A stretch of 64,000 bases of DNA, taken from NCBI RefSeq assembly GCF_030542965.1, contig NZ_JAUAOA010000003.1, forward strand, positions 248,001 through 312,000, written 5' to 3'. Each line of letters opens with the position of its first letter. Position 1 is the stretch's first letter. A program made the translations under genes and the position numbers. This stretch comes from Azotosporobacter soli. Its GTDB lineage: Bacteria; Bacillota; Negativicutes; SG130. This document shows, piece by piece, positions 20,918-34,782 of the stretch. Under the pieces are notes generated by a model. That model was not told the DNA's origin. It was given only the letters and a program-made list of their open reading frames with translations, and did no database searches.

Positions 20918-21304
20918 TCAAATTCCAGTTGCCATTTTAATTCCTTCAACGATTGCTCTTGCAGTTAAATCTTGCCCTTGATCTAGAAGCCACTTCATAA
21001 CTTTTTTCAACTTACTCTCTTTATCTAAATCCGAATTAATCTCTAATAATTTTTCTGTATACTCAATTCCTGCAACAGTAATTTTAGCCATCCCAGTATA
21101 TATATCCATAATGGTGCTATCACCAGGTAAAACCTTAATATTGCTTATCAAGCGCTCATTTTCCAACTTTACTAATGCCGAAATAAAAACTTGTTTATCC
21201 ATTTCTAATTTGTTAGCACAAATGAATTCTCTCATATTAGGAACATCTTTTTGATATTCTGTATATATTGCTATTAAAACTTTGTCCTTTGTAGTTAATT
21301 CCAT
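20918..21304 (-). CDS. YjcQ-like protein, probable foreign origin
   Basis: 128-residue protein resembling the YjcQ family (winged-helix-like, frequent near mobile and phage regions of Firmicutes). Pattern: TTKDKVLIAIYTEYQKD at the N-terminus, ALVKLENERLI, then YTGMAKITVAGIEYTEKLLE, and a C-terminal helix. No enzymatic motif is visible. Start ATG 21304 lies 9 nt after GGAGGTG; a GTG six codons earlier overlaps that site and is rejected. The gene is clearly more AT-rich than its neighbours and stands alone, so horizontal acquisition is likely. A regulatory DNA-binding role is possible but unproven. Confidence 0.65.
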   Translation of the reverse strand: MELTTKDKVLIAIYTEYQKDVPNMREFICANKLEMDKQVFISALVKLENERLISNIKVLPGDSTIMDIYTGMAKITVAGIEYTEKLLEINSDLDKESKLKKVMKWLLDQGQDLTARAIVEGIKMATGI

Positions 21305-21453
21305 TTTCTTCAGCACCTCCACTACTATAATTCACCAATCATATTCATTCTTGGTTATATCAAAATTTACCTTTATCAGTTTTATAAAAAAAACTCTTTA
21401 CCCCACTGATTATTTTTGAATCCTAATTCACTTACCTTCGTTCTCTCCAAGCC

Positions 21454-21619
21454 CCGCAGCTGTGGTTTTTCTGGAGCATTAAGGGCAAGGAATAGCAGAC
21501 AGGAAGAAATAGACAAGTCTGATGGCAGCAGCGACACGGACGTCGCTGCCATCAGACGCAGGCTATTTCCTCCATGTCTGCTCCGCCGCCCGACGGTTCC
21601 GGAAAAACCATTGCTGCGG
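21454..21619. repeat. Large nested imperfect palindrome (about 166 nt)
   Basis: The intergenic stretch 21305-21771 holds no convincing gene but folds end to end. Outer arms: 21454-21460/21613-21619 (CCGCAGC), 21463-21471/21602-21610 (TGGTTTTTC), 21473-21475/21598-21600. Middle arms: 21495-21501/21575-21581 (GCAGACA), 21502-21504/21571-21573, 21506-21512/21563-21569 (GAAATAG). Inner arms: 21517-21529/21545-21557 (GTCTGATGGCAGC, perfect 13 bp), closing on a small loop. It is GC-richer than the yjcQ gene beside it. It has the size of a non-autonomous mobile repeat or a structured RNA. Both strands also give open frames there, but these are by-products of the symmetry. Confidence 0.7.
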
Positions 21620-21683
21620 AAAGAGCTAAAACTGCGAGTATTTACATCACTAGCAATTTGAATTTTCAAATGTTGAATATAAA

Positions 21684-21714
21684 AAAGAAGGCACCATGCT
21701 GGCACCCCTTCTTT
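21684..21714 (-). terminator. Terminator of the flavin-type oxidase gene
   Basis: The arms AAAGAAGG and CCTTCTTT enclose a GC-rich centre. On the minus strand the stem ends in TTCTTTTTTATATTC. Confidence 0.8.
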
Positions 21715-21771: not shown

Positions 21772-22236
21772 CTACCGTCTCGCCTTGCCGCTAATCTTCT
21801 CCACCGCAAGCTTTATCACAACGGTACGCGCTTTGCCTTTGACAATGTAATCCTTGCCTGCAGCGATAAAGTCGGGCGAATATTTTTCCACCAGCGCCAA
21901 GAGTGCCGCGTCTTTTTCTTCGCCCTCCACCAGACTCGCCCTGCCAAACGCAATCGCACTTTCATATTTTGTGCTGAATTTTTCCGGCAGCACTTGCGTC
22001 GCGCCGACCACGCAGAAGGAGACTTTTTCATTTTGCGCCAGGCAATCGAGTTTTTTACCCTCCGTTGCGCAATGAAAATAAATCGTATCTGCGTCATATA
22101 CATAGCTTAGCGGTATCCCATAGGCATAACCGTTTTCACCCTGCATCGACAGGATGCCGTATTCGCCGCCACGCAAAAGCGCCGCTGCCTCTTCTTGCGT
22201 CACTTGGCGTTCCGCCTTTCGCATCTCACGATACAT
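21772..22236 (-). CDS. Pyridoxamine 5'-phosphate oxidase-family protein
   Basis: 154-residue split-barrel FMN-binding protein of the NimA/NimC-like group (COG3467 type), whose members include nitroimidazole reductases. Visible features: RQVTQEEAAALLRGGEYGIL, the barrel core GYAYGIPLSYVYDADTIYFH, FHCATEGKKLDCLAQNEKVS, and a C-terminal VVIKLAVEKISGKARR. It probably binds FMN as a dimer in the cytoplasm; the physiological substrate is unknown. Start ATG 22236 with GGGGGAG upstream (a TTG directly before it is in frame). It follows the DEAD helicase stop by 18 nt on the same strand and may be cotranscribed. Confidence 0.82.
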   Translation of the reverse strand: MYREMRKAERQVTQEEAAALLRGGEYGILSMQGENGYAYGIPLSYVYDADTIYFHCATEGKKLDCLAQNEKVSFCVVGATQVLPEKFSTKYESAIAFGRASLVEGEEKDAALLALVEKYSPDFIAAGKDYIVKGKARTVVIKLAVEKISGKARR

Positions 22237-22254
22237 CAAAACTCCCCCTTCGCC

Positions 22255-31371: not shown

Positions 31372-31641
31372 TTGCATCGCAATGATCGGGCTAAGTACCT
31401 TCTTTTTTCTTCTTCAGAGAGCCGGTGGCAGCTGTGAACCGGTGAAGCAAAGTTGGGAATTACCCCCGTGAGCAGCAGGCCGAACCCCTTGTGGCAGTAG
31501 GTTGAGCCGGCATGCCGCCGTTATCCGGCAGACGACCGCTGCGGCAGTCGTTCACATGAGAGACTGGAGCGTTGGCTCCGGTAATCAGGGTGGTACCACG
31601 GGTTTTAGACTCGTCCCTAACCAGGGGATGAGTCTTTTTTA
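31372..31641 (+). promoter_or_regulatory. T-box riboswitch (tyrosine) of tyrS
   Basis: Leader RNA that reads the charging state of tRNA-Tyr. Stem I carries the AGTA motif (31394-31397) and the apical AGAGAGCCGGTGG region. The specifier is probably UAC (Tyr) at 31461-31463 in GGGAATTACCCC. The T-box core AGGGTGGTACCACGG lies near 31587-31601, and its TGGT pairs with the ACCA end of uncharged tRNA. The terminator (AGACTCGTCCC / GGGGATGAGTCT then TTTTTT) lies at 31607-31641. When tRNA-Tyr is uncharged the antiterminator forms and tyrS is read. Confidence 0.93.
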
Positions 31642-34481: not shown

Positions 34482-34597
34482 GGAGGACACTTCGAAAAGG
34501 GTATTTCAATCCGGCATGTACGCCATGCTTTGCGAAAACACAGACCCTGCGTTGCCGCAGCGTCTTTTCCCGTTTCTCGACACCAATTTCTGGTGCT
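34482..34597 (-). promoter_or_regulatory. Riboswitch linker with three hairpins
   Basis: 116-nt linker between the second aptamer and the terminator. It contains CACCA/TGGTG, a CTGCG-GCAA-CGCAG stem with a GNRA loop (34547-34560), and CATG-GCGTA-CATG hairpins. No convincing coding frame. An alternative pairing that disrupts the terminator was not established. Confidence 0.5.
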
Positions 34598-34782
34598 TCT
34601 TGTGCTCTGTCCTTTTGCCTGAGAGATTGAGCAGCATTTCTGCCGCCTTGCCCCTTCGGCGCCCTTGTTCAGGGTCTCTCCAGAGTCCCGTCCGTTTACG
34701 GTTCCACCTGCAAGGCAGGTACCTGAGAGTGTTACTCCTTCGGTGAGCCAACGGCCTACGCCATGGCTGCTCTTCCGCAAAC
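34598..34782 (-). promoter_or_regulatory. Tandem glycine riboswitch
   Basis: Two glycine aptamers in series on the minus strand. Aptamer 1: GGAAGAGC start, CCGAAGGAGTAA, CTCTCAGGTACC, ending GGGACTCTGGAGAGACC. Aptamer 2: GCGCCGAAGGGGCAAGGCGG, CTCTCAGGCAAAAGGACAGA. These are the hallmark conserved segments of the family. Glycine binding normally stabilises the read-through state. It controls the amino-acid permease downstream. Confidence 0.93.

Follow-up and report, generated by a model that had tools for sequence, protein, structure and literature searches.

The window analysed here, a stretch of 64,000 nucleotides from Azotosporobacter soli, contains a long nested palindrome at 21454-21619. 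As originally predicted, it lies between two unrelated genes, both of which are on the minus strand. The gene at 20918-21322 (-) is YjcQ-like, with a Pfam score of 20.4 bits that is under the cut-off of 23.3, and it sits in an A+T-rich islet of a composition unlike that of its neighbours. The gene at 21772-22239 (-) is pyridoxamine-5'-phosphate-oxidase-like. Elsewhere in the window, a T-box leader at 31373-31621 (+) and a glycine riboswitch at 34597-34693 (-) score above the Rfam cut-offs. The features of the palindromic locus are as follows:

21444-21673 (+), whole RNA element, rod plus 3' tail; matched by covariance model R1 with 202 bits over model positions 1-270 (alignment A1)
21454-21475 (+), outer helix, 5' arm; partner 21598-21619, homologous helix 2 covaries
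21494-21512 (+), middle helix, 5' arm; partner 21563-21582, homologous helix 4 covaries
21517-21557 (+), apical hairpin with a perfect 13-bp stem; terminal loop with ACGGAC at 21536-21541, a CsrA-type GGA loop
21563-21582 (+), middle helix, 3' arm; from the fold, arm complementarity and covariation of the homologous helix
21598-21619 (+), outer helix, 3' arm; partner 21454-21475, homologous helix covaries
21620-21673 (+), conserved 3' tail; alignment A1 columns 280-333, AAAGAGCTAA ... dyad CAATTTGAATTTTC, consensus CAAGTTNAATTTGC
21684-21714 (+), hairpin 3' of the tail, possibly a weak terminator; perfect arms of 8 nt and a poor T-run, no call by the terminator script

All three nested sets of arms were found as described beforehand. 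The outer arms (21454-21475/21598-21619) are 22 nt long with a complementarity of 86%, the middle arms (21494-21509/21567-21582) are 16 nt long with 81%, and the inner arms (21517-21529/21545-21557) are perfectly complementary over 13 nt. RNA folding of 21440-21640 gave -108 kcal/mol, compared to -60.7 ± 4.7 kcal/mol for dinucleotide shuffles (z = -10.2), and none of the 200 shuffles was as stable. The predicted extent of 21454-21619 is correct for the rod; comparison with the paralogues revealed that the full unit is longer, comprising 21444-21673 (+), in which about 54 nt of conserved 3' tail follow the rod. In alignment A1 this tail forms the 3' end of nearly all copies, as AAAGAGCTAAAG and then the dyad CAAGTTNAATTTGC. 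Judged by eye, pairing of the tail (CUAAAG) with the left internal loop (CGUUUAG) as a pseudoknot fits some copies and not others.

BLAST of the window segment against its own genome revealed about nine other places, and a better-preserved paralogue found more when used as the query. The covariance model R1 was built from 17 copies of this genome, the window copy itself among them. It gave 31 full-length matches in the genome, scoring from 275 down to 83 bits with E-values down to 1e-72, together with a single partial match and some fragments. Weak echoes on the opposite strand at the same places are expected, as the element is palindromic. The dispersed repeat that had been suspected is therefore present as about 31 full-length, diverged copies genome-wide, each of which would encode a non-coding RNA of about 230-270 nt. 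Three of the matches (C21:72553, C21:73659 and C24:96) have equal scores and identical sequences where compared, and the two on contig C21 also share their flanks, so that the counts are based on 29 distinct copies. The identical copies (L034:12554-12823, L034:13660-13929 and L114:96-365) lie in an apparent repeated segment of about 1.1 kb on C21, which is also found at the start of C24.

The copies adjoin unrelated genes and are partly clustered, on contigs C4, C8, C11, C14 and C21. An integron-like attC array was considered and rejected, as the genes around the clusters on C11, C14 and C21 are unrelated and by eye show neither an integrase nor a cassette pattern. The median pairwise identity among the copies is 69%, and no pair exceeds 94% apart from the identical copies in the one repeated segment. 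The window copy shares at most 76% identity with any other copy. Terminator-like hairpins were found downstream of 17/29 copies versus 9/29 on the opposite side, a modest excess, and no conserved promoter was recognised by eye. Beyond this genome, BLAST against 39 relatives, plasmids and phages returned no copies, and a search of 300 genomes of the same class with R1 gave nothing convincing (best E = 0.005, about 20 bits). An exact motif scan yielded five matches in about 85,000 genomes and two in viral contigs, all of which are chance matches by profile and fold.

The dispersed copies covary, in agreement with the structured RNA that was one of the two readings of the original prediction; the locus is neither single-copy nor devoid of compensatory change. 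In the 17-copy alignment, 94.5% of cells hold standard pairs and 44/70 pairs show double-sided changes. Shifting the partner columns by one to three positions lowers the pairing to 33-41%. Compensatory double-sided cells number 201, against 60.2 ± 6.9 in shuffles, and the covariation score is 0.511 against 0.201, with 0/500 shuffles reaching such values. Such massive covariation of the rod indicates that the structure is under selection and is not that of a drifting miniature inverted-repeat element (MITE). For the 53 pairs that both strands predict independently, the plus strand has 25 G-U against 8 A-C (P = 0.005), whereas the union of both strands' pair predictions has no G-U excess (69 vs 88). 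The bias in the 53 pairs favours selection on the plus strand as a single strand, for which it is modest evidence. In addition, the plus-strand fold is more stable than that of the reverse complement in 23/29 copies. We infer transcription from the plus strand.

The apex of the rod forks into two short hairpins with GGA in their terminal loops. The original prediction recognised the structure correctly and overlooked these loops, which hint at the function. The loop GGA is invariant among the aligned copies wherever the hairpin is present, with loop sequences such as AUGGAC, AGGAC, ACGGAU, CGGAU, AAGGAC and similar, whereas the stems vary with compensation. Of the predicted hairpin loops, 63/104 contain GGA on the plus strand and 0/121 on the reverse complement; the rate is about 10% in dinucleotide-shuffled copies and 13/165 in flanking DNA. 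At least two GGA-loop hairpins are present in 28/29 distinct copies, and the copy at C14:55426 has four through an insert of 57 nt. The sole exception is the window copy, which has lost the second apical hairpin seen in the others and retains a single GGA loop (21536-21541). It is probably a weakened or decaying member of the family. GGA in hairpin loops, generally paired, is the signature of CsrA binding (PMC4333381), the pairing being due to the homodimeric nature of CsrA.

At the gathering cut-offs, Rfam gave no match for the element. The best permissive match is TwoAYGGAY (RF01731), with 32.1 bits for the best copy compared to a gathering threshold of 43, which no match in the genome exceeds. 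All of the 20 sub-threshold matches in a whole-genome RF01731 scan fall on element copies (20/20), several of which were missed by BLAST. No other Rfam family, HEARO/IscB-type RNAs included, reached the gathering level, and the permissive scan returned only TwoAYGGAY and chance-level matches. Conversely, R1, although built from this genome alone, recovers RF01731 loci in other bacterial families with E-values of 3.6e-13 and 1.4e-9. RF01731 loci from related genomes fold alike, into an irregular long rod that forks into GGA hairpins. The element thus shares with TwoAYGGAY (clan CL00106) the long basal stem carrying a fork of two AYGGAY-loop hairpins (28/29 copies, the window copy having one), the reciprocal model matches and the multicopy occurrence seen in many genomes of the phylum. 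It differs in its score (32 bits against a cut-off of 43), in its unit of 270 positions with rod and conserved tail versus 168 in Rfam, in its relaxed loops (AGGAC, CGGAU), in the presence of about 31 copies in one genome and in the missing hairpin of the window copy. Based on the reciprocal matches and the shared plan, the element is in our view a divergent relative, not a formal member, of TwoAYGGAY. Rfam assigns RF01731 the type 'Cis-reg', according to which the element would act as a leader, terminator or attenuator of neighbouring genes; such a role is very improbable, as the copies share neither the identity nor the orientation of the genes beside them and both flanking genes in the window are on the other strand.

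Related elements were also found in genus g40 of the same class, where dozens of RF01731 copies form sharp-ended units of about 219 nt; inspection by eye did not reveal the conserved tail in them. Some RF01731 positions, together with both flanks, are common to species of this genus and others are unshared; one locus holds the element in two species and a short stretch in its place in a third. These shared and unshared positions indicate that the wider family is multicopy and shifts position over evolutionary time. Comparison between genomes of the genus (G053, G078, G086 and G134) revealed, for example, that the upstream flanks of L171 and L176 are 95% identical over 1 kb. At the same locus the elements themselves share just 80% identity and the flank on the other side is unmatched, suggesting a rearrangement at the element.

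The sharp ends, the high copy number and the presence/absence differences between species in genus g40 make some form of spread possible. They agree, together with the dispersed multicopy palindrome itself, with a non-autonomous mobile repeat of the MITE or REP type, in which the rod would be a transposase substrate and the RNA-like features would be incidental or serve single-stranded DNA recognition. The outer arms do form terminal inverted repeats as in a MITE (22 nt, 86% complementary), and, like MITE, bcr1-like and REP elements, these are short palindromic intergenic repeats in many copies. An IS200-type tnpA also lies near two copies. The gene, the same in both (TnpA of about 154 aa), is located within about 250 nt of the element at L010:3423-3887 (-) and L111:12122-12586 (+), and both sites are near contig ends. 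However, the element departs from such repeats in its strong compensatory evolution, far beyond that of drift, and the invariant GGA loops would have no obvious role in a mobile repeat. Flanking direct repeats measure 4.41 nt versus 4.36 nt with permuted flanks, that is, no signal of target-site duplications in a test weakened by imprecise ends. The most similar copies mostly lie near each other on a single contig, suggesting local duplication, and outside the one repeated segment no copies exceed 94% identity. The miniature inverted-repeat element of the original prediction thus finds no support in this genome, and we consider a mobile repeat of this kind unlikely.

The genome encodes two csrA genes above the cut-off. 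One adjoins fliW in a flagellar locus; the second paralogue (G000:C30:7840-8052, L116) is near a second flagellin cluster, and no FliW was seen beside it. In both CsrA proteins the arginine of the YRGEIY/LRGELY segment is retained; we regard it as the residue that contacts RNA. Among 398 sampled genomes of the phylum, csrA was found in 48/50 RF01731-positive and 233/348 RF01731-negative genomes (P = 3.5e-6, a value that ignores kinship). The two positive genomes without a csrA match are assemblies of 75% and 94% completeness. Within the same class, csrA is present in 8/10 other RF01731-bearing genomes. The two RF01731-rich genomes of genus g40 in which csrA was not seen are G053, whose contigs stop within the flagellar region carrying csrA in sister species, and G134 (87% complete), in which most of the csrA-bearing flagellar region was not found. 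As this region is broken or largely missing, absence of csrA from the two genomes cannot be concluded.

The GGA loops might alternatively bind a different protein or make loop-loop contacts, with the rod as the functional part of the RNA. This would agree with the outer-helix base, the UUUU/AAAA segment and the 3' tail, which are conserved to the same degree as the loops, and with the 94% complete genome G477, which has at least six RF01731 matches and no csrA match. Nevertheless, the consensus of the loops agrees with the motif bound by CsrA (PMC4333381) and csrA co-occurs with RF01731, making another partner or function improbable.

We therefore propose, with a probability of roughly 0.6 and by analogy with known CsrA-antagonist RNAs, that the element constitutes a multicopy family of small RNAs sequestering CsrA. 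Each copy would be a non-coding RNA with a long irregular rod, an apex of two GGA-loop hairpins and a 3' tail. The paired GGA hairpins would be bound by the CsrA dimer as in CsrB/RsmZ-type RNAs, and the copies would jointly titrate CsrA from its target mRNAs, alongside the protein antagonist FliW. Both the binding of CsrA and the regulatory effect of the copies are what we infer from this analogy. The element resembles CsrB/CsrC and RsmX/RsmY/RsmZ in its GGA-bearing hairpin loops, of which each RNA except the window copy has two or more, and in the presence of CsrA in the host. The small RNAs of the CsrB/RsmZ type have few genes per genome with many sites each. In contrast, about 31 genes are found here, mostly with two sites each on a long covarying rod, a number of copies far above what CsrB-type systems are known to need. 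According to PMC4333381, CsrA-sequestering RNAs had been described only from Gammaproteobacteria, and TwoAYGGAY was predicted there in 2014 to bind CsrA in Clostridia, a prediction unvalidated at the time. No later test of it was found in the literature searched.

The present analysis adds to that prediction a divergent lineage below the Rfam cut-off, with about 31 copies, strong covariation, near-universal double GGA hairpins and co-occurrence with csrA. The Rfam cut-off therefore misses at least one whole lineage of TwoAYGGAY-like RNA. Whether the CsrA-sponge RNAs of the phylum are as a whole a spreading repeat family is a more tentative idea, possible though rather doubtful, in which dozens of semi-redundant sponge genes would multiply by duplication or mobilisation and the CsrA set-point would be set by element dosage. 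About 31 copies whose structure is strongly selected, together with the invariant GGA loops, the two csrA genes and fliW, make the 2014 prediction directly testable in this genome. This bacterium may use a large set of decoy RNAs to control CsrA, which, if true, would be an unusual regulatory sponge built from a dispersed repeat.
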